Source: Siphonodentalium dalli (taxonomy: Eukaryota > Mollusca > Scaphopoda > Gadilida > Siphonodentaliidae). Taken from it: DNA of 64,000 nucleotides. The stretch lies in NCBI GenBank assembly GCA_032622095.1, contig CP136064.1:195083948-195147947 (forward strand), in the 5' to 3' direction. The notes under the pieces are model-generated. The model saw only the letters and a list, made by a program, of their open reading frames with translations, had not been told where the DNA came from and did not search any database. The translations under genes were made by a program, and so were the position numbers. Position 1 is the first letter of the stretch. Each line of letters starts with the position of its first letter. Shown here one piece after another: positions 4,651 to 58,733 of the stretch.

Positions 4651-5086
4651 GTGGAACTGATAAATTAGTACTCAGTCACTATGCCAACTGGGGGAATGTA
4701 GCATTCTACTAACATCGCCAAAAATCTCAAAGAAATTGACAATAAACTAACGCAAATGATTTCGCCATCGATACTCATTGCATTTAATAAATATATAAGA
4801 CTGACGGTGTGTGTTGTAAATTTGGATTAATATTCATAAAAATAACTTCTTTGAGCAACCGGAGTTTTTCACATCACTTTAAATCTATCAATTATCTTAA
4901 AGTTTATTATTTGTTTGCATTTGAGATCGATCAAGTTTAAAAATGCTCTATCTTTTCCCCCCGACACCACTTCCAATAATAACAACAACAACAATTTCTC
5001 AGGAACTTGTTTACAAGGCATGTATGCACTATTTTTACCAAAACACAATTTTAGGACACATCTGGTGTTACACATATTTAACTTAA

Positions 5087-5342
5087 TCCTTATATGACGG
5101 GAGCTGCGCTGGTGCAGCATTAAAGATCTTGTGCAAGTGCATTCTCTTATATATGCGAGTCTCCCACAGGGAGCCTCTCATATATAAGAGAATGCACTAG
5201 CTTACAAGGTCAAGGTAAAATTGTTAGGTCAATACATTCTCTTATAAATGCGAAGCTCCTTGGGGAAGACCCACATGTATAAGATAATGCATTGGCACAG
5301 GGTTTTCGCAAAATTTCAAGAAGCTCGTCATGGAAGCATTTT
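5087..5342 (+). mobile_element. Family B TTAA MITE, copy 1
   Basis: TTAA (5083-5086) precedes the left end TCCTTATATGACGGGAGCTG; the right end is GTCATGGAAGCAT then TTTTAA. Two internal perfect hairpins with stems of about 25-30 bp (ATTCTCTTATATATGCGAG and its complement) are separated by a constant spacer (aaggtcaaggtaaa). TTAA target and termini close to CCCTTTCATGAC fit a piggyBac-like non-autonomous element. Confidence 0.75.
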
Positions 5343-5506
5343 AATGTATATATTTTCAACTGAAAAAATTACAAACATCACAGCTGAATAAGTGCCGTAC
5401 GGAAAATAGCTATATTTTCAGTCCTCAAAAAATATTGTTATGTATGTGGAATTGTTGATGTCTTTCTTTTTATTATCTAGTTTTATCACACACATGGTAT
5501 GGTTAA

Positions 5507-5763
5507 ACCTTTCATGACTGGAGCCTCATGAAATTTTGCGAAAACCCGGTGCCAACGCATTCTCTTATATATGAGTCTCCCATAGGGAGCCTCGCATATA
5601 TAAGAGAATATATTGGCCTGACAGTATTTACCTTGACATTGTAAGCAAGTGCATACTCTTATATATGCGAGGCTCCCTATGGGAGACTCGCATATATAAG
5701 AGAACTCACTGGCACAAGATCTTTCTTTAATGCTGCACCAGCCCAGCTCCCATCATGAAAAGG
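5507..5763 (-). mobile_element. Family B TTAA MITE, copy 2, inverted relative to copy 1
   Basis: TTAA flanks both sides (5503-5506 and 5764-5767). The order of internal parts is the reverse of copy 1: the GGTTTTCGC-side end comes first and the gctgcaccagc end last. It forms a roughly 680-bp inverted pair with 5087-5342 around a spacer of about 160 bp. Confidence 0.77.
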
Positions 5764-6489
5764 TTAATAATATAACAGGTTGTGTTCTAAATGATGCAAT
5801 GGGCAAAAGTTTTCGAACAAAGTAAATATTCTACCTTTCATTCTGTCAGTAATTTTCTAGACAGTAACCAGGTTCAGTCCACATTTGTGTATCTTGTGAC
5901 ATGTTTTACTATGGTATTGCTATGGATATGTACTTGGCGGGAAAAGTCATGTAATTTTACGGTGCAAAATTGGCTGATATGATTAATTGGCTTCAATAAA
6001 AACATAATGATACCATGCAGACACCTCGTTCTATTCTCCTACCGCCTGAATAGTGTTGGATTCTCACATTAGAAGACCTACATTAGTACATTTACACATA
6101 AGCGACAAAAAGATGCCAAAAAAAAAAATCCAGCAAGAAAAAGCAATTTAGGTTCCGGGAGGCAGATGATCTATGATAAAATACTGAATAGTAATAGAAC
6201 CTGACAATAATGCATGCATGTCTACAATAGTTTAGTTTTCTTTTCCTTGGTTATCAGAAAATGGTTCAACCCTTTTTGCTATACTTTTCGTTATGCTATA
6301 CGTTTGATACAAAACTTCTAAAGTTAACGGTTTGACGGTGTAAGTGGCCACGTGACTTTCGTTGTTACAATTTAGACGTATGAACCTGGCTAATAAGAGT
6401 AAACAAATACTGATTGGAACCAATCAAGTACAGGTTTCATAATGGAACAAATTGGTTCAGAAGTTGAAAAAGAGCATCGCCAGGACATG

Positions 6490-16026: not shown

Positions 16027-17424
16027 ACCTTTTTATGACGGGAGCTGCGCTGATGCAGAATTAAATATCTTGTGCCAGTGCATTCTCTTATATATGTGGG
16101 TCTCCCGTAGGGAGCCTTGCATATATAAGAGAAATCACTGGCTTACAAGGTCAAGGTAAATATTGTTAGGTCAATGTATTCTCTTAAATATGCAAGATAG
16201 GGCCCGACGAAGCTTCAAGATTCGATTTTGAATCTTACGTTCCGATTCGATTCGAAAGCGGTCGTGTGATTCGGAATATTTTGAATCGTTGTATACAAGT
16301 TATTTATCACGGGGAATAGACTGCATTATATGTACAAAACATTTGTAATATCCCAAATACTTAACCTTAGGCTACTTCCGCGAAAATCTGGGACCTCCGT
16401 GGTCCAATGTGTACAGGGTAAGTTGTCCAATAGCCCACTGCTCATATATATTTTTTCTCCTCCCAGTCCCAGCGCTGACTACTCGTGGCAGGTCGGTAGG
16501 TTACTCGTGCAACCTGCTGTATACAGGTCTGTGATGGATCGTGTGTTCATCACGGTTGCCATAATCGTAGCGCACACCAGTTTAATCCACCACATAAAAC
16601 CAGCAATGTCGCGATTTTGACCGGCCCCATACTGTGGAAGCGAGTGAATTTCTTTTGGGACATATTTGTATGTCGGTATTTGACATTCTTACCAGAAAAG
16701 CCAATATTGCGTTACTCAGCTCAATCAAATAATATATTTTTTTTTAATTTAAAACTTAACACGATATAAATATATTAAATAAACAGTTTGTCCAAATCCG
16801 ATCAACATCTTTATACAGCATATGTTATCTGGGAAATGGAATATGGTTGACCATTTAGCTTTCATGGCAACTCAATTGATCCGATGGACAGGCCCAAGTT
16901 GGGATACTATACATAGTTCCTGTAATCCCGTTAGCGTATAAAATGCACCATTCCCAAGTCACGATGTGCAATTTTGATATCGCGCGTGCCTCCTGTGTGC
17001 GACAGAGTGAAGCTTACATGCGCAGACGAGTTTCCGTTTGCAATGACTCGAATCAGACTCCATTGACTCCAAAGTTCCAAACTGCTTACTTTCACGAATT
17101 TCACGCATATTCTCATATATTAAACTGTTTAAAACTGTGATTAACTACTGTTCATATCATAGAAATTAAGTTTCTCCGACGTATTCTGAGTTATCTCACT
17201 GACGTTATAAAATCATTGGACATTTGCCTCCATTTTTGCTCGTACTTCCCACTGATCGGTACCGCCAATCTACTAAAGTGTTTGAAACAGATCTCGATTC
17301 GAGATTCGATTCGATTTCGAATCATTATCATGATTCGAGATTCGATTCGATGTTGAAATTGCCGATTCGTCGGGCCCTAATGCAAGGCTCAATGGGAGAC
17401 TCGCATATATAATAGATTGCATTG
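16027..17424 (+). mobile_element. Family B TTAA MITE, copy 3, split by a hAT element
   Basis: The left part (16027-16197) carries the TATGACGGGAGCTGCG end and the first hairpin. The right part (17380-17424) resumes in the middle of the second hairpin and is lost after gattgcattgag, so the right terminus is missing. Confidence 0.75.
16198..17379. mobile_element. Non-autonomous hAT element, 1182 bp
   Basis: The ends are TAGGGCCCGACGA and TCGTCGGGCCCTA. Flanks are ATGCAAGA (16190-16197) and ATGCAAGG (17380-17387), an 8-bp duplication with one mismatch. GATTCGATTCGA words repeat near both ends, as expected for subterminal transposase-binding repeats. No long transposase ORF is present. Confidence 0.87.
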
Positions 17425-26469: not shown

Positions 26470-28402
26470 CTGTGAGAGATTGCTTTAACATAGATATGTT
26501 TATACATTCAATTGCCTACTCAACATTGAGATATTTTTCTCTTCTATAAACACCATCTCTGAGGTAGACGCCAAGAAATGTATCTGTCTATGTGTTATCA
26601 TGGTATTCAGCAAGGAGCTATAATTTTTTCATAGAGCTTTGTAATGCCTTTCAAGCTAGTTTCAGTTTTCTGAAAATGTGATGGAAAATTGTTAGTGAGC
26701 GTTCTCAAAGAGACAATTAACACTACATTTATCTCATACCACCCATAAAGTAGTGCATGTGTCCATATCATCTCAATGAGAATAACATTTATTATATGCC
26801 TGCCTATGAAATAGCGGAAAATTACCGAAACTATGTCATCATATGTATCTCTTAGAAGCTATACAGTAGAGAAATATTATTTTGTTATTTAATTGAATAA
26901 CGTCATCACTTGAAAGCGGTTTGCTACCTACATATCAGCTGATCAGTTGATTTCCATGCATTGTTTAATTTGCTGTGTTATTAAAAGTGAAATTGCTGCA
27001 TAATTTAGCAACTTTAAGCATTAATAAGGCGCACATAATAAAAAGAACACCAACAGGTTATGTTTGAATACCTGAAACATCTCATTTGTGTCTGGAAAGA
27101 AATATTAAATTTCAGCCGCTCTGAAACGTTTATGGTTCTACATAATTTTGACAATTAAAACAAAGATAAAGCAGTACATGAAGTTTATTAATTGTCTAAT
27201 GTTAAGATAATGAAATGTACCTTTTCCAGAAGTCGCGATTTATTCCATTTCCAATTCCAGAATGCCAATGAATACAAATATCGCAATATTTGTTTGGGAC
27301 ACAATCCTCAAGTTCGAAGTGGTATTTTTATGATTTCAATGCGTCTTTCTGGGAACACATAATGCTCATACTAGTAGAAAGGTGGTCAAAATTAAAAAGC
27401 GAATATTATTAGGTGTATTTTGTTGCAGTTTTAAATTGATAATTTGATAATATATATTCTAAGTAGAAAGCAGCAGTAAATGGAATTCAATTGTTTTGTT
27501 TTTTTTTAAGCTATTTTAGTCTGAAACAAACATGCCATCTTTGAAATGTTGCAAAATAATATTTATTATTGGAGATGTTAAAAATTTATAACTATTTGTA
27601 TATTAAATCCAATCAGTTTTAACAAAGCATTAGCACCTGTCTATGTACTATATCTGTACCTGATCACATGTCCTGGGTCTCAAAACACTTACAGATAAAA
27701 CATATATTGTCCTTGTGAAATTATAGATAACAAATTTCTTTTTGATGTTGAATATCAAACAACACACTTGAGGAATCAAGCTTGGGTGTATATATGTGTA
27801 AGTCAGGTTACATAAGAAAGGTCATGACCAAACAAATCATCAAAGGTCCCAATACCTTTATATTGTCCTCGTCTGGCTCAGAATATCATAGCATTATTAA
27901 ACCTTTCTATACTAAATACACATCACAAACCCTGCATGCTGACAAAAGCATTCTAACAAAAAAAAATACACGATATTCAACTCTTATATACCTTAACCCA
28001 TTGTGACATCACATGTAAACAAATATTTAACTGTGAATTCCCGAGGAACTCCAAGTTGTTGTGAACTGATGTTAACAATGTACTTCCCACAAAAGTACAT
28101 GTAACAATTATACCAAACAAAACTAGGTCAAGGTCGCATCCCAAAAAAGGGCACTGACCTTAGGTCACCAACTCACCACCCGTAATTTCTCTATATAAAC
28201 GAGAGAGTACAAGTTCTCGTCCCACTTACTCAGAAAACTTATCTGATTGCAGATGGTGACAAATCACCTGAAGAGCTTAACCCAAGCAAAATCAATTTTT
28301 ACGCTATATTTTAATACAAAAAGTATTGGTACACCAAATACCTAATTACCTGAGTTATCACACTTAATAAGCAATTAACTTAAGAGAATTCACACCTACC
28401 AA

Positions 28403-32335: not shown

Positions 32336-34123
32336 ACTCTTGGAGAAAATGAAATTAATCTGATTTTAATGACCACTGAGTGATAATGTAAACAACAAGG
32401 GTGCTTCATTGATAACACTATTAATCTCATTTAAATTATGAATGACATGAATACACTCCCTGGGGACTCTGCCTATGTTTTTTAATTTATTTAAATAAAA
32501 AATACTTTATTTACCTGTGAGTTAGGAGGTGAGATAGGGTGGAATGCTGTTGGTTGGGGACAGGGTGGGGTTCTGGGTCATGTGGGGGGGGGGTGATAAA
32601 AAAAAAATTGTATGTTAAATTGATCAAGGAGTTCCTGAACTTTTTATTATTTTTTGGGGAATTATGGCCATAACTCTGTTAAAATATATCGGATCAAACC
32701 CATATTTGAACTTGATCTGTATATAAGTGTCAAAAATTCATATACCAAATTTGGTGTTGATCAGATGAAAAATGTTTGAGTAATCCTGTCTTGGATGAAT
32801 TCTATATCAAAACAAGAGTGGAAGGGGTTAAATAAACAATACCAAAATCCATACAGATGAAGAACATGCTAAGAAAAATCTAGGTAAGAAATATGAGACT
32901 GTGATGTGTCCTAAACAAAAATTAAAGGTCAAAATGCAAAAATTAAATTTTTTGTTTTTAAAGTTATGTCCCTAGCTCTGCCCCTATTTGACCCAGTGAC
33001 CCCATTTGAACAAATCTGAACCCCAGTCACCCAAGGTCTCTCTGTACCAAATATAAGCTAAATCGGCCAAATATTTTTTTAGAAGAAGTCATTGTAAGAA
33101 TTACTATGAGTTATGGCCCTGGTTTCTCAACTAATCGACCGGGTGACCTCATTTGAACAAATCTGAACACCAGTCACCCAAGGACCCTCCATACCAAATA
33201 TTAGCTAAATCGGCACAATGGTTATGGACAAGAAGTTGTTGTAAGAATTACTATGGAGGAATAGAGTTATGGCCCTGGTTTCGCAACTATTTGACCCAGT
33301 GACCTCATTTGAACAAATCTGAATGAGAGTCACCTAGGGAACATCCACACCAAATATGAACCAATTCGGCATTACGGTTTCAGAGGAGAAGATGTTCAAA
33401 GAATTGTTGATGGACGGACGGACGGACGAGGAGTGATGACTATAGCTCCACCGGAGACTTTGTCTCAGGTGAGCTAAAAAGGGCCGCATTAGGCCTTTTT
33501 ATTGCAATGCCTGATGTTATGACAAAATTTATTATTTTTTTTTGTGGATTTTATCAACATGTCCATAGCAGATATGTGTTGAATATTAGTGTGCATTGAG
33601 CTCTAACATGTAATGTGTTAAAAAGTGACTTGCAGGCTTACAACATGAAGTAGATGACTACAATTAAGAAAATGATTAGCTGATCCTCATGCTCTTCTTA
33701 CAATTAGTCATTGTGAACAACTTACACTAATTGTAACTTTATACAATTGAAAGGCACAGGACTAAATTCAGGATCACATATTAGAATGGGGAGGTATCAG
33801 TTTTTAGACAACAATAACAGTAGTTAATGTCAGGGGCATTACATATTGTTAGGTAATCCCAGTCATACACTGGTAGTACAATGTCATTTTTATATAAGAC
33901 TAAATGAGTTTATATGCTTAACAGTTCCCTCTACCTTTCTGGTTATTACTAGACAGAGGAAGGTATCTTTGTCCATGCTTACTATGCGCAGAAAAAAATA
34001 AAAAATAAAACCCTCCCTCCCTCATCGATTTGGAAAAAAAAAATTGCCCGAGAACCAAAACACTTTTTTTTTTTGGCCTTATCTTCTTATTATCTTCCCA
34101 GTGATTATCCTTGGTAGCTTTAA

Positions 34124-34375
34124 CCCTTTCATGACGGGAGCTGCGCTGATGCAGCATTAAAGACACTGTGTTAGTGCATTCTCTTATATATGAATCTCCA
34201 ATAGGGAGCCTCACATATATAAGAGAATGCACTGGCTTCAAGTTCAAGGTAAATATTGTTAGTCTAGTCCAACGCAATCTCATATGCGATGTTCACTATG
34301 GTAGACTCTCATATATAAGAAAATGCATTGGCACAGGGTTTTAGCAAAATTTCAGGAAGCTCCGTCATGGAAGGG
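34124..34375 (+). mobile_element. Family B TTAA MITE, copy 4
   Basis: TTAA (34120-34123), CCCTTTCATGACGGGAGCTG ... GTCATGGAAGGG, TTAA (34376-34379). Both internal hairpins are recognisable. Confidence 0.88.
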
Positions 34376-34814
34376 TTAAGGGGCCGAATTACAGGCATCT
34401 GTCCGATGCCAAAGTAACCCATTTTACCCAACTTCTAGTCTAAAATTTCCCAATTTACTATATTGTACAAAAGTGATTGATAATTGCATGAGTATTCCAA
34501 AGATTAGCTTCAAATGTTGTTAATTGGAAGTACACCAAAATTTATAGATTTAATTTCTTAATGGGAACCAAGGTCTTCGTAGTTGGTTCAAATGAAAATA
34601 ACATAATATAAAACTGTCATTAACAAGTACATGTAAAATATATTGACTTTATTCTTATTTTCATTATTAATAACTCTCCAATAACGTGTTTGTGCATATC
34701 AAAACCATTGTTATGAACCATTACAGTGGAATTACCGATCCAAGGCCAATTAATAATAATTACCAAAGTTTAATCAAAACTCAAAGGTAAACATTGCAAA
34801 AGGTCAAAACATTA

Positions 34815-34898
34815 TTTGGAAAATCATATCTAGACTTTGGAAAATCATATCTAGACTTTGGAAAATCATATCTAGACTTTGGAAAATCATATCTAGAC
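34815..34898. repeat. Four tandem 21-bp units
   Basis: Four perfect copies of tttggaaaatcatatctaga + c. The duplicate array is at 36764-36847. Confidence 0.95.
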
Positions 34899-36074
34899 TA
34901 AACTATTTGAACTTACAAGATTAGCGATGTTTATTTACAAATCACTTTAACAGTTTTGTTTACATAATAATGGTTTCAACACACTAAATCTCGTTATTGG
35001 ATAACTTTCAATAATTAATATAAGAACAAAGTGTATCTATGTCTCCAACATCTTTTTGGTGGCAATGTTTTTACAAACTTTTTAATTTTTGCACATTTAC
35101 CAACTGTGAAGCCTTGTGTCCTTTTAAATGACAACTAGAATTATGTGCTAAATCGGCACAATGGTTATGGACAAGAAGTTGTTGTAAGAATTACTATGGA
35201 GGAATAGAGTTATGGCCCTGGTTTCGCAACTATTTGACCCAGTGACCTCATTTGAACAAATCTGAATGAGAGTCACCTAGGGAACATCCACACCAAATAT
35301 GAACCAATTCGGCATTACGGTTTCAGAGGAGAAGATGTTCAAAGAATTGTTGATGGACGGACGGATGGACGGACGACGGACGAGGAGTGATGACTATAGC
35401 TCCACCGGAGACTGTCTCAGGTGAGCTAAAAAGGGCCGCATTAGGCCTTTTTATTGCAATGCCTGATGTTATGACAAAATTTATTATTTTTTTTGGTGGA
35501 TTTTATCAACATGTCCATAGCAGATATGTGTTGAATATTAGTGTGCATTGAGCTCTAACATGTAATGTGTTAAAAAGTGACTTGCAGGCTTACAACATGA
35601 AGTAGATGACTACAATTAAGAAAATGATTAGCTGATCCTCATGCTCTTCTTACAATTAGTCATTGTGAACAACTTACACTAATTGTAACTTTATACAATT
35701 GAAAGGCACAGGACTAAATTCAGGATCACATATTAGAATGGGGAGGTATCAGTTTTTAGACAACAATAACAGTAGTTAATGTCAGGGGCATTACATATTG
35801 TTAGGTAATCCCAGTCATACACTGGTAGTACAATGTCATTTTTATATAAGACTAAATGAGTTTATATGCATAACAGTTCCCTCTACCTTTCTGGTTATTA
35901 CTAGACAGAGGAAGGTATCTTTGTCCATGCTTACTATGCGCAGAAAAAAATAAAAAATAAAACCCTCCCTCCCTCATCGATTTGGAAAAAAAAATTGCCC
36001 GAGAACCAAAACACTTTTTTTTTTTGGCCTTATCTTCTTATTATCTTCCCAGTGATTATCCTTGGTAGCTTTAA

Positions 36075-36324
36075 CCCTTTCATGACGGGAGCTGCGCTGA
36101 TGCAGCATTAAAGACACTGTGTCAGTGCATTCTCTTATATATGAATCTCCAATAGGGAGCCTCACATATATGAGAATGCACTGGCTTCAAGTTCAAGGTA
36201 AATATTGTTAGTCTAGTCCAACGCAATCTCATATGCGATGTTCACTATGGTAGACTCTCATATATAAGAGAATGCATTGGCACAGGGTTTTAGCAAAATT
36301 TCAGGAAGCTCCGTCATGGAAGGG
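36075..36324 (+). mobile_element. Family B TTAA MITE, copy 5 (duplicate of copy 4)
   Basis: TTAA (36071-36074) and TTAA (36325-36328) flank the same element. It arose by the segmental duplication, not by a new insertion, because the flanks are also identical. Confidence 0.88.
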
Positions 36325-36763
36325 TTAAGGGGCCGAATTACAGGCATCTGTCCGATGCCAAAGTAACCCATTTTACCCAACTTCTAGTCTAAAATTTCCC
36401 AATTTACTATATTGTACAAAAGTGATTGATAATTGCATGAGTATTCCAAAGATTAGCTTCAAATGTTGTTAATTGGAAGTACACCAAAATTTATAGATTT
36501 AATTTCTTAATGGGAACCAAGGTCTTCGTAGTTGGTTCAAATGAAAATAACATAATATAAAACTGTCATTAACAAGTACATGTAAAATATATTGACTTTA
36601 TTCTTATTTTCATTATTAATAACTCTCCAATAACGAGTTTGTGCATATCAAAACCATTGTTATGAACCATTACAGTGGAATTACCGATCCAAGGCCAATT
36701 AATAATAATTACCAAAGTTTAATCAAAACTCAAAGGTAAACATTGCAAAAGGTCAAAACATTA

Positions 36764-36847
36764 TTTGGAAAATCATATCTAGACTTTGGAAAATCATATC
36801 TAGACTTTGGAAAATCATATCTAGACTTTGGAAAATCATATCTAGAC
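36764..36847. repeat. Four tandem 21-bp units, duplicate
   Basis: Same four copies as 34815-34898, in unit 2 of the segmental duplication. Confidence 0.95.
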
Positions 36848-38319
36848 TAAACTATTTGAACTTACAAGATTAGCGATGTTTATTTACAAATCACTTAAAC
36901 AGTTTTGTTTACATAATAATGGTTTCAACACACTAAATCTCGTTATTGGATAACTTTCAATAATTAATATAAGAACAAAGTGTATCTATATCTCCAACAT
37001 CTTCTTGGTGGTAATGTTTTTACAAACTTTTTAATTTTTGCACATTTACCAACTGTGAAGCCTTGTGTCCTTTTAAATGACAACTAGAATTATGACAATG
37101 CCCCTATTGCCTTTTTTCCTAAAGGCAGGGCATGGTGGATGGACACACAAACAGAAGTATAAAGCCAATTCATTATACCACCTCAAAACCACATATCTAA
37201 GAAATTCATTTCATACTTGAAGTTTTATGCTAATAGGTCATTGCTTTTACGTAGCCACCTCACATTTCTCAATAGTCAGATGACAGATAAATGAGCAAGC
37301 AATGACCCAACTGCGTGACCTTTAACATTGCAAGAAATTCCATTAGCAGTGTCTAGCATTTATTCTCTTTGTCCGCCCCGGAACTCCTGGTTAAATTATA
37401 CATGTCAGCCGTGCCTAGCAGCCACTCACCTATGTATCAAATCAATATTCACATAGCGTTATAACACAACACGATAAATCTTGATATTCGCAGAAAGTAA
37501 AACGTGATCTAACAACAGAAGTCCGCTATCTCTCCAGATATTGATCAGTCATCGGGAAAACAAAATCACTGGATATAACACTGAGTTTAGCACTATTATC
37601 CCGCACTGCCACTAATCAATGCTCTCGCGCTAATCCTATCCACATTATCGGCAAGCGGATCTCTGCCAGGCATTCATCAGGCGATTCCACTCAAATTGCT
37701 GCGACGACCGGATCTTTGCAAAGTATCCCATGATCCGAGGCACTCAGAACACGGATCTACATTCATTGATTATTCTCAGTAAGGCATTTGTAGATCAGCA
37801 AGTGTGATTCCTTAGTTTAGGACTGTCCAAACATTTGCCTATTCCGTACAGAACTACAGTCCTAAATCACTAAATTCCTGACATATGGTCGTTATAGATG
37901 CCCAGAGCTCTTCTATTTGTCCACTACAGCCGACTCTAAGGAAACAATCAAGATGTGATTGCTTATAGTTTAGGACTGTTTAAACATTTGCCTATACCAG
38001 ATAGAACTAGAGGTGGAAGTGTCCCACCTACAATACGGATAACCCCCGCAGTGCAATTGGACTAAATTAAGGGTAGCCATATTAACATACATGTATTTGT
38101 TTTGTTTTTTTTATATAAAAATAGAAATAAAAAAAAACATATGTAAGGAATACAAGCTCAGACAAAATTCCTAATTCGATATAAAGGGCGATAACTCTTC
38201 TAAAACAAGAGGTTGCTGGGATGCCCCATGGTGAAAATTGAAATATGGGCAGGTCGGAAACCAAATTGTGAAAAAAAATATGATGAACGAACAAATTACT
38301 GGACAATTCTAACGAATGA

Positions 38320-39127: not shown

Positions 39128-39507
39128 CCCACCATCTTTTGGGATGGGGGTATAGCAAGTCAAACGGACCACATAATCAGGTACACAGATTCCCATGGTA
39201 GTAAATAACTGTCATGTTTTTTAAAATTGACTGAAAAATATAGGAATACAAGCTCAGATGAAGTTACATCCATGGACGGACAGATGAGCTAATTCCTATA
39301 TACCCCCATCTCCTATAACTCGTTACGGAGTGTATAACTACTGTCCTGAGTCACTAAAGTCTTGACATATGGTCATTATATAAATGGTCATAGACAGATA
39401 TATAGCACACTCATATTTGTCTACTGTAGCGGACACTGAGTATAATGTCAAGTCTCATTTCCTTATTATATAGGACTAACCAATCAAACCTGCTCCACAT
39501 AGAATTA

Positions 39508-39694: not shown

Positions 39695-40409
39695 TAGTCC
39701 TAAATCACTAACCCCTGACATATGATCTTTATAGATGCCCAAAGCTCTCCTATTTATCTACTGTAGGAGACTCTGAGGAAGCAATCAAGACACAATTCCT
39801 TAGTTTAGGATTTTCCTTATTTTAATGTCGGAAATCTCTCAAGTCATGATATATTGGGTCATTGTACATATCGTCGGAGGGCTTCAATAAGTTCCTCAGA
39901 TAACTTGTCAATATTTCAAGTACAAATGCAATTTTTCAATGTTTATCAGGGAAATTGGTGTTCTAAAATGTCATATCTGGGTTCCCCATAAAACATTTTT
40001 GTTAAATCTAAAATGTCGTAATTTTTATTTTCGAAACCGTTCCCGATAGGATAATTCTGATTGAACTGTTTTGTAGAAGAACGACTGGAGGGCGTATCAT
40101 CCTTATCCTGAGTGACTGAGACTAACGAAGCCGCAGGAATCATCAAAACTAAAATGTCGAATCGACAAGATTTCAATATTTAACTTCTAAAGTGTCATAT
40201 AATGCAATCAAATCATGTTTTCTCATCAACTAGATGATAATTAAATATGAAAGTACTAGTATCTATTATAACAACTGTGATATGACGTGTTATCATGCAA
40301 AGTTATTGGCAGATACCAATTCTAGTTCGAGATAAATAGTTTTTTGTGTCTCCTGAACAATTTGATTATCCTGAGGTACGACCTTTTAGAGGCCCACCAA
40401 TGATATGAA

Positions 40410-40487
40410 CAGTAATGCCCTAAATAATTGACTCCCTATTCACAGCAGAATTATGGGTAACTTTTCAGGATTTAGTCGGAAATATGG
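40410..40487. mobile_element. Family A MITE, copy 6, left arm only
   Basis: CAGTAATGCCC through ttaggcggaaatatgg-like sequence (tttagtcggaaatatgg), then unrelated DNA. The break is just before the palindrome centre. Confidence 0.85.
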
Positions 40488-40779
40488 GTATGTGGGGATT
40501 CATTGTCACAAACACCTGATTGAAGGTCCCACAAAATTATTTCACACCTGGTTGATAATACTCCAGCCTTGACAAGTATGGAATTTTTTATTACATAATA
40601 ATTATTACAGTTACAGTTGGTATGTAGAGGTATATATAAATGATATATATAAAAATACTTCTAGTTCATCAAAATTATTTTAATTATTGTGTATTTTACC
40701 TGTGTCTGTTAGATTTTACGTTTTAGTCATTAATTGTGAACCGACCAGAAAACGATGATTTAATTTGGCTAAAGTTTTT

Positions 40780-41284: not shown

Positions 41285-42468
41285 GTCCTGTTTCTCTGAA
41301 GTTCTGACATATGGTCATTATAGATGCCCATGCAGATATTGTGGCCACTCTCCTATCTGGATGTTGTAGCTGACTCTGTGAGGATGTACGGACTGTAATC
41401 AAGATACAATTTCTTAGTTAAATCTAGGAGTGTCAAAACATTTGCTGGTTTTGGAGAGCGGGGTGTCCTAAATCTAAGTCATGATATATGAACCTTATAG
41501 ATGCCAGTACAGATATATCCTATTTGTCTACTGTAGCCAGTTCTTAGGAAGCAATCAAGATGCAATTCCTTAGATTAGGACTGTCCAAACATTTGACTGT
41601 TCTGAATAGGACTACTGTCATAAATCTTTGTGAAAAGTTGTGATAGATGACAGTTATATTTCATCTTAAGTGACTTTCTTGCCTTCTGATCGGCTGAGAG
41701 CTTACCTCCATTTCCAGTAGAGTGCATCCATTTGGATGGGGAGGGGGGCACTTGAGCACTACATGCATGTAGTCCCAGCTATTTTAGCACGGTGGCTGCT
41801 TTGAGCTTGCCGTTTCATGTTTATGCTTTCAAAAGGTATGATATTCAAAACATATTTTATGAGTTATTCTAAGTAACTTGAGTTCATCCAATCATCTATT
41901 TAGTACACGTTTCCTTCGACGCAAACCACCTAGTGAAATCGGTAGGAATAATACTGGTTTACGTATGATTGCCTTACTATTCTATATCAGACTTTATGTC
42001 CAGATCCAGTGGCAGGATTATTCATCAATTTTAATTGACTTTATCATACAAATCAATAAAAAATTATATATTTATTGGAAAGATTGATATCTTATGGTCA
42101 TAATAATGTATTATAATCTAACATTTATGTTAAATTACGCACATAATATGCCGTGTAATTACCAATAACTCGAGTTTGATATGTTTGTTTATGCTCAGAT
42201 AAGACCTGAACTGTTACAAAAGATGCGAGGTAAAATTATTTATTTATTTTTTTAAATTATGTGATGAAATATATTTTTCACATTTAATAAATTACATATA
42301 AGTAATCTCAGTTGAGAACTCTTGTAGAGTTCAGAACAAATATGTTTTCTATGGAATAAACTGGATTACTTTCACAATTATGACATTTTATTACCGTCAT
42401 ATTGATGGGAGTTTAGATGAGCGGTGCTTCACATTTAAAGTCAACTATAAAAGAATAAGACAACCGTA

Positions 42469-43672: not shown

Positions 43673-44041
43673 GGCGATAAGGTCAATAAGTGCTGAGTAT
43701 TCTGACTCGGTAGTGTGCGTGGTGGTACAGCGACTCCCAAGGAATTGATCTCAGAGATGGATGGCTCAGCAATCAGGCTCTAGTGTGTGCCGGCCTTTAG
43801 AATGTCTGCATTTCGCCATATAATCTGAGAAACTCTATAAGCAACAGCAGATGATCATGATAATCTTTTTGTTTCCACAGAAAGAAAAGTTTAATATTTT
43901 GATTGCACATCCAACTCTCTTTCTGTTTCGTTCAGATTTTGGTCTCATAATTTCTCAATGTTCTATCAAGAAGAATCAATATTTAGAAATGATTTTACTA
44001 TTTGACTATGCTGGCCACCTTATTGCAACTTATCAAAACTA

Positions 44042-44342: not shown

Positions 44343-45028
44343 TGACCCGCCATATCAAATCCAGTCGTAAGTCGGGATTTTTTTACCCTGTGCCAATGGA
44401 TTCTCTTATATATGCGAGTCGACCATAGGTCGCCTCGCATATATAAGAGAATGCATTGGCCTAACAATTTTTGACAATTTTAATAATTTGTTCTTGTATT
44501 CTTTAACAATTTTATATTTCACCCATACAGAGCCCCAGACAAACGTGAGCAGACAACACTCTTCTATATGCTTCTATATATGTGTGGGGCTCCCTGCAGG
44601 GTAATGGTTGTTTTTTTATTTTATGTCCTGATTCTCTTATATATGCGAGTCGACCATAGGTCGCCTCGCATATATAAGAGAATGCATTGGCCTAACAATT
44701 TTTGACAATTTTAATAATTTGTTCTTGTATTCTTTAACAATTTTATATTTCACCCATACAGAGCCCCAGACAAACGTGAGCAGACAACACTCTTCTATAT
44801 GCTTCTATATATGTGTGGGGCTCCCTGCAGGGTAATGGTTGTTTTTTTATTTTATGTCCAAAAAATTGTAAGAAACATTTATTTAAAATACATAATAAAA
44901 AATTGTTAGGCCAATGCATTCTCTTATATATGCGAGGCGACCTATGGTCGACTCGCATATATAAGAGAATGCATTGGCACAGGGTAAAAAAAATCCCGAC
45001 TTACGACGGGATTTGATATGGCGGGTCA
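44343..45028. mobile_element. TIR element built from family B-like hairpins
   Basis: TGACCCGCCATATCAAATCC and its mirror ggatttgatatggcgggtca (with one extra base) form terminal arms of about 55 bp that run into 'aagtcgggatttttttaccctgtgccaatg'. Flanks repeat CAAATG (44337-44342 and 45029-45034). Inside are three ATTCTCTTATATATGCGAG hairpins and an exact tandem duplication (44401-44862). Confidence 0.75.
44401..44862. repeat. Exact tandem duplication, two units of 231 bp
   Basis: Both units start at the ttctcttatatatgcgag hairpin and run to tttttattttatgtcc. I see no difference between them. Confidence 0.92.
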
Positions 45029-48203: not shown

Positions 48204-48347
48204 AAAATATGGCTTGCTGCCATTCATCGGAAAGATCTCACCGAGAGCTTTCCGATGAATGGCAACAAGCCATATTTCCGACTAAATCCTGAAAAATTTC
48301 CCATAATTCTGATGTGGTTGAAGGGTAATATACTTTGGGCATTACTG
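48204..48347. mobile_element. Family A MITE, copy 10, left end lost
   Basis: It starts inside the left arm (aatatggcttgctgcc), keeps the centre and full right arm, and ends tttgggcattactg followed by TA. Confidence 0.83.
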
Positions 48348-52447: not shown

Positions 52448-52472
52448 AAAACTAAACACCTAAAAAAAAATA

Positions 52473-52683
52473 TAGTAATGCCCTAAATAATCGACTCCTT
52501 AACCACAGCAAAATTATGTGTAACTTTTCAGGATTTAGTTGGAAATATGGCTTGTTGCCATTCATCGGAAAGCTCTGTGAGAGCTTTCCAATGAATGGCA
52601 ACAAGCCATATTTCCGACTAAATCCTGAAAAATTACGAATAATTCTGCTGTGGTTAAGGGGTCATATACTTCGGGCATTACTG
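52473..52683. mobile_element. Family A MITE, copy 12
   Basis: TAGTAATGCCC ... to ... tcgggcattactg with TA flanks. The two ends belong to different subtypes (aaataatcgactcc versus gaagtatatgacccc, read inward), so the copy may be a recombinant. Confidence 0.87.
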
Positions 52684-53171
52684 TAGTCCAAGTTTCCTTT
52701 GACAAAAAACAAACTTGTTATTATTAGTTTGCATTGTTGTTTTAAAAACAGCTTGATAAAACAGAACAATAACCAAACAATTAATAACTAATATAGTAAT
52801 GGAAAAAATTCTATATCAAGCAAGTGGAGTAAGTAAGATCTGTGGTTCAAATTTCTCAAAGTTAGACAAATTTGAGTAACTGTCAGAAAGTTTCAAAATG
52901 ATGGTTGCACATGGATTTCCCCTCCCATTCAAGACCCCCGCCTACACCACCCATCGATATATACCTCTCACTCCAGTCATCTGGGAAAGGGTTATTGTAT
53001 GTCCCAATAGTTAGTTCAAACATTTTGAGCATGAGATCCAGTTGTGAAGTAACTTTCAGATATGGAAAAATAGGAATTCTGATGAATGCCAGCAACACGG
53101 GGATATATAGATGATATGCCATTAAATGTTAAAATAGCTTTGCCCAGTCAAGATAGCTTTCACTTTTATAA

Positions 53172-53404
53172 CCCTTCCATGACTGGAGCTTCCTGAATTT
53201 TTTGCTAAAAACCCTGTGCCAATGCATTCTCATATATGCGAGTCTCCCATAGGGAGCCTCGTCTATATAAGAGAATACATTTGCCTAACAATATTTACCT
53301 TGACCTTGGAAGCTAGTGCATTCTCATATATATATGCGAGGCTCCCCATCGGAGACTTGCATATATATGAGAAAGCACTGGCACAGGATCCTGTCATGAA
53401 AGGG
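53172..53404 (-). mobile_element. Family B TTAA MITE, copy 6
   Basis: ATAA precedes CCCTTCCATGACTGGAGC, and CCTGTCATGAAAGGG is followed by TTAA (53405-53408). Both hairpins are present. Orientation is as in 5507-5763. Confidence 0.8.
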
Positions 53405-54377
53405 TTAACATAAACAGAGAAACATTTTTCACATAGTCAAGGCAAGAAGAGACTCAAATAAACACGGGACATAAGGGATTTTAATTATTAAAATATTTTA
53501 TATATTGAAAATGTGATGTGTTATACATGTATACTATCAGTTTCTTTTTCGACAAAAACAAAAGAAGCAGATAAAATACAGAACGTACATATTTTGCAAA
53601 GCTGGTGAATAAGACAGAATCTGATAAGCATGGTGAACTCAATAGCCTAGTTTTATATTTGTCCTATAGACCGTTGTTCATCTAAGAATTTACATGTATT
53701 CATACAAAAACAAATTATAAACTAAGTGTCAGTACAAAAAATAAATAAACCTAAAAACTAAGTTTCTATCCTCCAAGTTCAAAGGGATTTAAAGAAATGT
53801 GAAAATCTGGTTAATTTAAAATAAGAATAGATCATACAGAGGAGAGGCATTCAAATGAAATTAGTCAGTATGAGTACAAAAATATGCACATAAGTAAATA
53901 TGTGAGCAAATTTAATACAGCAGAGACATATGACAACACATACCTTTTCAAATGAACATCAGTCACATAATTTTAATCTACATATCAGCACGATATCAAG
54001 TAAGTGATGACTAAATGACGGAGATAAAAAAAATCAACTGTATCAATATAGTACTGTCGAGAAATCCTGCCTACATCAATACGCTTCAGTGACGGCCATC
54101 TAATTCCGCTAATGGTTGTATTTCAATAAAGCCACCTCAACACAGGAATAATTGATCCGTCAAACACACAAACGGAGCGTGTACACATGATCTCTTGGCT
54201 ATGTTTAAGTAAATACGAAACATCAATATCTCGCTGCGAGCTTTCCGTCAACGCGAGTGGTGACACAAAGAAGCGATACAATTATTATATTATTACAATT
54301 TCGTTCTCATTCACTTGTCAAATGTCAGTCATGTTAGAGAGTAGAACCTCACAACGTGGCTATGCGATCGACACCAA

Positions 54378-54617
54378 GGCATTGATTTGGCCTTAATTGT
54401 CCACTCGGGTGGCTCAGTGGCATTAGTTTGGCCTGATTGTCCACTCAGGTGGCATAAAGCTGGCCTTAATAGTCCACCCTGGTGGCTCGGTGGCAGTAAT
54501 GTGGCCTTTATTGTCCACTCGGGTGATTCAGATGGCCTTAATTGTCCTCATGTGGCACGGTGGCATTAATATCGCATAATTATTCACTTGGGTGGATTTG
54601 TGGCATTAGTATGGCCT
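54378..54617. repeat. Minisatellite, about six units of 40 bp
   Basis: Degenerate units of ggcattaNtNtggccttaat and tgtccactcgggtggctcNg, one after another, ending where a MITE begins. Confidence 0.85.
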
Positions 54618-54618
54618 A

Positions 54619-54885
54619 CAGTAATGCTCTAAATAATCGACTCCTTAACCACAAAGAATTATGGGTAACTTTTCAGGATTTAGTCGGAAATATGGCTTGT
54701 TGCCCTTGTTGCAGGAGCTTCGCATATATAAGAGAATGCACTGGCTTACAAGATCAAGGTAAATATTGTTAGGCCAATGTAATCTCTTATATATGTGAGG
54801 CTCCCTATGGGAGACTCGCATATATAAGAGAATACATTGGCACAAGGTTTTCACAAAATTCTAGGAAGCTCCAGTCATGGAAGGG
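54619..54885 (+). mobile_element. Chimera of left half of family A and right half of family B
   Basis: Bases 54619-54704 are the left arm of a family A MITE (from CAGTAATGC, TA-flanked, to cttgttgcc). Bases from about 54711 are family B from the middle of its first hairpin (gcatatataagagaatgcac) to GTCATGGAAGGG and TTAA (54886-54889). The join lies next to the palindrome centre of both parents. Confidence 0.88.
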
Positions 54886-55228
54886 TTAATTGGAATTGAT
54901 TTCATTTGGGCAGGTGATAAACACAGAACCGCATGTGTAATGGCCAATAGCCTATAACACTCAAGGTCAACCTTGTATAAGTGTTTAGAGGACCCATCCA
55001 GGTTATAATTGTCTGCCAGAAAACTCAAACAGCCTTGTTAGCATTTACCATGGCTACCTGTATTTTGCACACTGGCAATTGTTTATACTCCCAAGTTAGA
55101 TTGTTTGTTTTGTAAACAAGAAGAGGCAGTCTTAGTTAGTCAAAACAACTGGGAGTAAAGTACCCAGAATAATTTATAGAGAATTACTGGATTCACTGAT
55201 ACTTAACTGGTCCATTTTTTTTATTAAT

Positions 55229-55445
55229 CGCATTAAAGATACTGAAGGCCTTCCTTCCCAATGGGTATTGCTGTTAAAATATATAAGAGAAAGCAATGGC
55301 TTACAAGGTCAAAGTAAGTGTTGTTAGGCCAATGTATTCTCTTATATATGCGAGGCTTCCTATGGGAGACTCGCATTTATATAAAAGAATGCATTGGCAC
55401 AGGGTTTTCACAAAATTTCAGGAAGCTCCAGTCATGAAAGGGATA
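55229..55445 (+). mobile_element. Family B TTAA MITE, damaged copy
   Basis: Bases 55229-55245 (cgcattaaagatactg) recall the left end, then comes about 30 bp of foreign sequence. From 55280 the second half of hairpin 1, the spacer, hairpin 2 and the right end GTCATGAAAGGG follow. An isolated TTAACCCTTTCATGACTGGA end sits at 55524-55543. Confidence 0.72.
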
Positions 55446-56735
55446 ACATGACAAGAGAAAACATAAGTTTTAATGCTTTCCATGGATATTTCAGAAAATA
55501 ATTAAAAATTAAAAATTTCAATGTTAACCCTTTCATGACTGGAACTGGAACTCACAAACTTGTCTAGCTACATGAATCAGGTTAGCTTCCCTGTGTGTGG
55601 ATAACAATTCCCACTAATTATTTTGAACCAGGTTTGCCTGTTAACCTATATAATGTACAATGCATGTTACCAACTGAGCAAACAATTATAAGGCCCCCTT
55701 CACGGGATGGAATTGCTGGCTAGATGGAATCCACTATTCCTCAATTGAGTGAGTTCTCTTAAAATCAAACGACAGTTAAGCCAAATCCATTGTTATTAAC
55801 CTGATTTCAAATTTTTTGTTTAAACTGTCAGCTTTAATTCAAATGTTTTTGTTAAAAATCTGTTTTTAAGAGATATTTCTCAATGATCTGACATTTTTCA
55901 ATGTTTAACATCACGATTTGATATGAATTTCGACACCATGCAATCTGCACTCACTATGAATACCTTAATACGCTTTAACTGAATCAATTTTTCATGAGTT
56001 CCTGTTGTGGGGCAAATTATTCTACAACACTTCCTGGGGTGTAACTCATTTTTCTCAATTTGCAGGCCACTTCACTGTTAATTATTCAGCACTAGATAGA
56101 GACTATTATGTTTTTGAACAATATCAATGACAAATGATATGTCCAGTCATTTACGTACAATGAGAATGAGACCTCCGGCATTCACAGAATCTCTTAAACG
56201 GAACAAAAAGCAAATCAATAGAAGAGGTGATATTGTCTATGTGAGCACGGAGCGCTTTCCGTGAGATACGTGTCAATACTCATGTCATCCTGCCATGATC
56301 TACTCCAGTCTGGTTACGAGCTTGCACAATAAAGAAAGTTTCCAATCAATAGTACCACATTCATAGATAAGTGTTGCAGAGTGCCAACCAACAGGGAGCA
56401 AGCTTATACCATGCCAACTGACAGGAAGCTTGGATCTTATAAATTCTACCAGAAGAGTTTAGTGAAGATAGTGTAACATATTCCGATATGGCATGCTTTA
56501 TGCTTAAAATGTTTTATAACTGAATGCTCACAGATGAGTAGTTACTTTATTCCCATTCAATCATTTGCAGGGATGTTCAACTGATAAGTTCAACAAGGAG
56601 CCATAGGCTTATGCTGAAAAATATGCTTTTTCTTATAGCTTATGAGTTGACTTGAGGAAAAAAATAGCCACTTTTTTATCTCCATTGGTAATTTCTAGGA
56701 TTTCAGTAAATCTGAATTAAATAAATTCCATTTAA

Positions 56736-57095: not shown

Positions 57096-58733
57096 GTATT
57101 TTGCATATTAAGGACCTATTTTGATCCCCGGAACTGAGCAAGAATGTGATAAAAGCAAGAATTACCCGTTATAATTTGAGGCTCAAAATTGTTGCGGGCC
57201 TTTAACTAAGAAAACAGTAATTTAACAGCCTGGTTTATGAACTGCTCCTTTAATTTTTTCCTCAATATTGTAAAAAAAATAATAAATATTTATATGGCTG
57301 ATTACAATGAGGTTTGTGGTCACAGTGGTGAAGAAAATATTTTATGGCAGAGAATCTTTTTTGCTTTCACCTTCTATTCCATTATTTATACAGTTTTATG
57401 GGAAGAAATACCATAAATTATTTTTATTATTTGAGGCATATTCAAAAATCTTATGAAATTCATGGTCAATTCTGCTATCAACTGCACACTCATTCGTTTA
57501 TATTTACGAAATACAGCAAAATACAGATTTCAACATGTTCAATAAACCGTTTACGTCAACATCATTGGAGAGGTCAACTTTATCAGAAAATTTCTTCATT
57601 AACTTATGAGGTATAGTTTACATAAAGCACACGTTTATTCAAGTAAATAAAACATTATCAACCTAAATTTCATAACATTACAAGCTACAATCTTCAGAGT
57701 ATGCAATAAACCTAGAACAACAAAGTTGTGTCAACATGTTAACGCTATTGCACGTGTTTGTGGTGTCGCAAGGTAAAACTCGAACCTACGGTTTTCATAT
57801 TACCATCGCCTCACAACAAACTTGTACAATAATGTTAACCAGTTCACACACTTGTGTTGTTCTATCTATTTGTCAATTGTTGTGGTGGTTATGACCGATT
57901 TTATTTTATTATTTTCCCCTTTCTGCATCTACTATTTTTTAGGCAACAGGCGATCGAGGCTTGGTGTTGCCTAATACTTTTCGCTATCGTTTAACCACAA
58001 TTCCTTTAAAAAATGGCGCTTTAAAATTTTCCCACAATTTTTTTAGAAATGGTGATTCATGGGGCCTGTAACATGACACCATTTTATCCTATTTAAAAGA
58101 TGTTATAAAAACAAAACAGCAAATTGTGTGTTGCCATCTAGTCAATTAATATGTTTTGGTATAGAGATAACTGATAACTTGATGTTCACAACACATTACT
58201 ATATAGTGAATAGGTAAACATGTATGGCAATCCTTTGCACCGTGACATCATGAGTCCAACATCACAACCCGGGAAACGTCACGAGTGATTTTGCACGAAA
58301 AACATCACGACAGCGCCTTCAGATAAACTGTAGATTCTGTCGAACTAACAAGGGTCAAGTACATTATCCACAATTTATAAAGAAGGGTAATGATTGAAAA
58401 CAAGTGTACATATATAATCAAACAACTCCATGGTCATAGTTTTAAGATGCTGCGACATTGGTCGATTTATCGCTAATATTGGTTGAATAAACCAAAAGCT
58501 ATTTACGTGATCAATACTCATCTTTGTTCCCACTAGCAATAGTAGGCCTATAGATATTTTGCAATACTCAAGTTCTGTATGAGTTTTCTGACAGACTGTC
58601 GGGAGAGCTGCTCTTAAGAAACTAGCCAACACTACACATACATCACTTATATCAAAGGAAGTATCTAGACAGGAAACATGTATAGATCATAGTTTAATTG
58701 CAGTCTTAAGTATACCCTGCATATGAACATATA
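57096..58733. other. AT-rich sequence without clear features
   Basis: No exons or terminal repeats recognised. Short ORFs such as 57344-57616 have no domain. Confidence 0.4.

Follow-up and report, generated by a model that had tools for sequence, protein, structure and literature searches.

A chimeric locus composed of parts of two MITE families in the scaphopod Siphonodentalium dalli

Make-up of the locus

The window analysed here, a stretch of 64,000 nucleotides from the scaphopod Siphonodentalium dalli, is dense in small non-autonomous elements. One locus, 54617-54889 with its target sites counted, is a chimera. It consists of a piece of a palindromic MITE with TA target sites (family A), a filler of 9 nt and a piece of a MITE with TTAA target sites (family B); its parts are compiled in Table 1. 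A sequence-only reading had placed the element at 54619-54885, which was right as to the location and slightly too short as to the extent.

Table 1. Parts of the chimeric locus and its left flank
Feature	Positions	Strand	Remarks
Left flank, degenerate minisatellite	54388-54616	+	TRF period of 73 bp over 54388-54570; similar unit at 54585-54617
Family A MITE, left part	54617-54704	+	Consensus positions 1-89 of 217; opens with its own TA target dinucleotide
Small hairpin of the A arm, most of it	54692-54704	+	A consensus 77-91; 5-bp stem, 5-nt loop
Filler, 9 nt	54705-54713	+	Direct copy, 8/9, of 54696-54704; interpreted as the scar of a templated repair
Family B MITE, right part	54714-54889	+	Consensus positions 86-260 of 260; closes with its own TTAA
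Second internal hairpin of B, still whole	54773-54841	+	33-nt arms, 91% complementary

The alignment with family A pairs 54617-54707 with positions 1-92 of the consensus and starts with TA-CAGTAATGC. It contains 3 mismatches and a single gap of 1 nt; 2 of the mismatches and the gap fall in the part up to 54704 (consensus 1-89). The homology ends at the 3' foot of the small arm hairpin, as judged from the consensus position and the fold of an A arm. The alignment with family B covers 54714-54889 against consensus positions 86-260, differs at 9 of the 175 aligned bases, contains a single gap of 1 nt and ends with GGG-TTAA. The nhmmer E-values of 1.8e-26 (A) and 2.6e-59 (B, from a profile that had the chimeric locus among its rows; the A profile was built without it) place both alignments far past chance. 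With 3.3% mismatch in its A part and 5.1% in its B part, the locus can be compared with the other copies of the window, which show 1.8-11.8% (A) and 5.6-9.1% (B).

The outer ends are exact. On the left, TA is followed by the end sequence of family A; on the right, the end sequence of family B is followed by TTAA (54886-54889). Neither family is represented with both of its terminal inverted repeats. Homology to A ends at position 89 of 217, so that the right 128 positions are lacking; homology to B begins at 86 of 260, the left 85 positions being absent. The proposed fusion of two families that differ in their target sites is borne out by both alignments and by the outer ends, and the junction given at 54705-54710 is correct. 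The description as half of B was too modest, since 175 of the 260 positions (67%), i.e., two thirds, are retained.

The left end carries only the TA of A, the right end only the TTAA of B. A single target-site duplication around the whole chimera is not found: the two target sites differ and the flanks are unrelated, the likeness of the left flank to the right one (54890-55229) being no better than that of shuffles (its score was reached in 169 of 200). With up to 3 mismatches allowed, the window contains the junction a single time, and 0 of 100 shuffles gave a match. Exact searches of viral_contigs for five patterns (junction, A core, A end, B right end, B spacer) found nothing, nor did searches of genome_contigs for the two A patterns, neither collection being intended for animal genomes. 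A Pfam scan of 9 of the 26 open reading frames of the window revealed no families, and an Rfam search gave 0 matches.

The parent families in the window

Family A comprises 14 loci in the profile search, the chimera counted, and 7 of them span the element from position 6 or earlier through 217. The consensus of 217 bp reads TA-CAGTAATGC...GCATTACTG-TA; going by its target site, the family is presumably Tc1/mariner-like. It equals its own reverse complement at 216 of 217 positions, a symmetry that was favoured by the 4 reversed copies among the 12 rows of the consensus. Single copies, too, are palindromic: their 108-nt arms are complementary to 97% (copy at 58732) and 96% (45740), and with DNA parameters an A copy folds into one hairpin of 217 nt. 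Internal deletions have removed 26 positions from the copy at 39506, 55 from that at 42467 and 21 from that at 44040; the copies at 48205 and 40409 are truncated, and those at 28402 and 52471 have lost 2 nt at the palindrome centre. Two further copies are listed as observations. The one at 1883-2114 carries an insertion of 18 nt at the palindrome centre. The one at 40409-40505 is truncated near position 96; by eye, its small arm hairpin is heavily mutated and the sequence preceding it is conserved.

Family B has 8 loci, the chimera again counted, and a consensus of 260 bp, TTAACCCTTTCATGAC...GTCATGGAAGGGTTAA, in which the chimeric locus is 1 of 8 rows. Its target site and its CCC end make it presumably piggyBac-like. 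Five of the 8 loci begin at position 1 and extend at least to 254. Two of these five, at 34120 and 36071, have identical flanks and represent one insertion that was carried along in a segmental duplication; the tandem duplication itself extends over 33204-37094 with a spacing of ~1.95 kb and 98-99% identity. The element is an inverted repeat along its whole length, with a centre near 130, and contains two internal hairpins, the first with its centre near 83, the second near 179. When two whole copies were folded, the best structures paired the arms of the first hairpin with those of the second, which leaves the first without a free tip. When the first hairpin is folded by itself, its tip coincides with the break seen in the chimera.

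Some other B copies deserve mention in their own right. At 16196-17391 a copy is split close to the middle of its second hairpin; by eye, the inserted sequence has TAGGGCCCGACGAA-like ends and a repeated ATGCAAG to either side. At 5083-5767 two copies lie in inverted orientation with ~160 bp between them. A stretch at 55524-55548, TTAACCCTTTCATGACTGGA, matches B positions 1-25 weakly (E 0.65) and lies 78 bp past another B copy; going by this match, it is possibly a B end fragment. The copy at 55279 had at one stage been considered broken at the same hairpin as the chimera. This idea was dropped, as the copy has probably diverged, the B profile reaching left to 55231.

A further element, at 44344-45027, is flanked by a target duplication of 8 bp, ACAAATGT, and has the ends GACCCGCC...GGCGGGTC and long inverted repeats. 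It contains the hairpin module of B three times, twice near the element ends, and hairpin modules are therefore common to elements with different types of target site. The B-like block may, instead, be a nested insertion of TA type, possibly into the middle of a smaller palindrome (TTTTTTTA / TAAAAAAAA); the TA on both sides and the palindrome were seen by eye. Within this element, 44399-44859 is an exact tandem duplication of 231 bp (2.0 copies, 100%), either recent or an effect of assembly.

The junction and its breaks

The filler is absent from the sequence-only reading. Pairs of adjacent 9-mers as alike as this one are found at 25 of 63982 positions of the window, that of the chimera included, and the copy is thus improbable by chance, even if several lengths are allowed for. 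To judge from its letters, it would result from a repair in which a polymerase copied its own flank prior to joining. Theta-mediated end joining leaves such templated filler at junctions, and here 8 of the 9 bases can be taken from the adjacent A sequence. Deletion junctions of this kind (cf. PMC11292364 and PMC11724301) are alike in that a short filler is copied from beside the break and the partners lack homology; in the present case the pathway would be deduced from the scar only. A divergent A sequence that simply runs on through the junction was also considered. It was rejected, because the agreement falls past position 89 (by eye), up to which there are 2 mismatches and the 1-nt gap; nhmmer weakly extends the A match to 54707 or 54710.

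The breaks themselves had been described as lying next to the palindrome centre of each parent, with the halves joined at their hairpin centres. This fits B in so far as 3 nt separate its break from the tip of the nested first hairpin; the overall centre of B is ~45 nt away. It fits A only loosely. There the break is 20 nt ahead of the centre (position 109) and coincides with the base of a small side hairpin, not with a tip. If breaks were uniformly distributed, an A break within 21 nt of the centre together with a B break no more than 3 nt from one of three centres would be expected with a probability of ~0.016, a post-hoc figure for a null chosen after the data had been seen, with A allowed up to 21 nt. 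The coincidence of the breaks with the centres is modest.

The other A copies offer a comparison. Endpoints were entered by hand from the alignment, the break of the copy at 40409 was set at position 96 by judgement, and indels below 10 nt were dropped. The 10 events of at least 10 nt, the chimera excluded, show no clear preference for the centre (p = 0.35). Adding the two central 2-nt deletions lowers the value to p = 0.081, and adding the chimera as well to 0.051; both figures lean towards a hot spot, since several other small indels, spread along the element, were left out. If the 14 endpoints in A, the chimera included, are treated as independent, p is 0.012 over the whole length and 0.054 over positions 15-203. 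Breakage at a hairpin tip may have triggered the fusion.

Origin and meaning of the fusion

Probably, though with considerable reserve, we attribute the locus to separate insertions of A and B, which a deletion with templated end joining later fused. A and B would have inserted independently, a short distance apart and in their present order, and both would once have been whole. One later deletion would then have taken the right 128 positions of A, the intervening DNA and the left 85 positions of B. The repair, be it theta-type end joining or replication slippage, would first have copied 9 bases from the end of A and then joined the ends. Extrusion of a hairpin could possibly have supplied the initial break.

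Separate insertions are favoured because each outer end keeps the target site of its own family only and the flanks are unrelated. The filler, 8 of whose 9 bases repeat their neighbours, also speaks for this origin. B did not insert within A, as the sequence past the TTAA of B is not A; nor did A simply insert within B, since the sequence ahead of A is not B and the left part of B is missing there. Two independent insertions plus one deletion are the fewest steps that account for the locus. That A and B can be close neighbours is documented by a pair in the same cluster, 483 bp apart (A at 52471-52685, B at 53168-53408 on the other strand), and the damaged copies at 39506, 42467, 44040, 48205 and 40409 show that deletions are common in A. 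Against this origin speaks that, of the 13 other A loci, a single one has a B copy within 500 bp, the nearest B being 1.45-7.7 kb away from the remaining 12. Also, the break in B is nearer to a hairpin tip than is usual for a random break. Finally, the 9-base copy could be older than the fusion. An alternative that had been named as fatal to a hairpin-centre origin, i.e., a B element inserted whole and truncated later, fits as well or better, if extended to both A and B, because an ordinary deletion between neighbours yields the same product.

The most serious competitor of separate insertion and deletion is joining driven by the palindromes themselves. Hairpins or cruciforms would be extruded and cut near their tips, and, after a loss of bases, the ends would be joined within or between chromosomes. 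We consider this possible but doubtful. The model is the human PATRR translocation t(11;22). According to an excerpt of PMC4940405, its breaks invariably fall on the centre of the palindrome, and a cell model suggests that the hairpin is cleaved at its tip; deletions and template switching at palindromes are also treated in a 2021 review (PMC7999016, known from an excerpt). As in PATRR, two palindromic sequences are joined here and bases have been lost around hairpin tips. The chimera differs in that one break is 20 nt off and the other at a nested hairpin, and in that the event probably took place within one locus. It thus resembles PATRR, yet fails the strict centre rule on one side. The closeness of the B break to its tip, the rough closeness of the A break to its centre and their low post-hoc joint chance support such a process. 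So do the folding of a whole A copy as one hairpin, the tip that the first B hairpin exposes when folded alone, the central 2-nt deletions (28402, 52471) and the central 18-nt insertion (1882) in A copies. The larger events in other A copies, however, are no nearer to the centre than random ones, the values are p = 0.081 and 0.051 with added events and 0.012 or 0.054 with independent endpoints, the A break lies at the foot of its side hairpin, and the best folds of whole B copies leave the first tip unexposed.

A quite unlikely course is transposition of A into the TA at the tip of the first B hairpin (consensus 83-84, in CCCATAGGG at 79-87), the right arm of A being lost later. In a one-ended version, the right end of A would attack this TA, the intervening DNA would be deleted and the right arm of A would again be lost afterwards. 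The retained B sequence indeed starts just past the TA. Simple insertion, however, requires the left part of B beside the left end of A, where the minisatellite is found instead, and the one-ended version requires a second deletion that stops almost exactly at the right end of A. Moreover, TA is frequent in the AT-rich B element.

An artefact of assembly or sequencing is very unlikely. Palindromes are difficult to sequence, as noted in an excerpt on GAP-Seq (PMC4057610), and the exact 231-bp tandem duplication lies inside another palindromic element of the window; the 9-base scar and a divergence matching that of other copies nevertheless look biological.

Hardly credible is a MITE of chimeric make-up that moved as one unit, despite a recognisable element end at each side and a precedent in Anopheles gambiae: its two ends come from families that differ in target site (TA, TTAA), a common duplication is lacking, and the junction is present once in the window and 0 times, as an exact match, in viral_contigs. 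The suggestion that such a chimera might found a new MITE family is not supported either, with one copy in the window and ends from two families. The precedent is AgaP2-P12MITE, a hybrid with the 5' end of one P subfamily and the 3' end of another, according to an excerpt of PMC1562414; due to this case the general idea of a hybrid MITE is not new. Both parents of AgaP2-P12MITE are P subfamilies and the hybrid is one of the MITE families of that paper, whereas the parents of the present chimera differ in their target sites and a single copy is seen. Chimeric MITEs at inversion breakpoints of the Atlantic cod, explained by ectopic recombination in an excerpt of PMC12368964, are alike in that pieces of elements have been joined by rearrangement; there, recombination occurred between similar copies, while A and B have no such similarity. 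Among the matches listed, titles and openings of abstracts describe no case of two MITE families fused at their hairpin centres.

The chimera is a real scar, though a fairly ordinary one, with no hint of a new mobile element. That the abundant palindromic MITEs of this genome repeatedly give rise to fusions by breaking at their hairpin tips, with a regular exchange of halves and hairpin modules between families that have different transposases, strikes us as improbable. If it were true, the B module in the element at 44344-45027 would count as a further product of this process. If many junctions of the genome were located at hairpin tips, MITE families would provide a natural assay for breakage driven by cruciforms in organisms other than humans; the present locus by itself does not establish them as such. 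As a single case, the chimera shows how dense palindromic MITEs decay and fuse.
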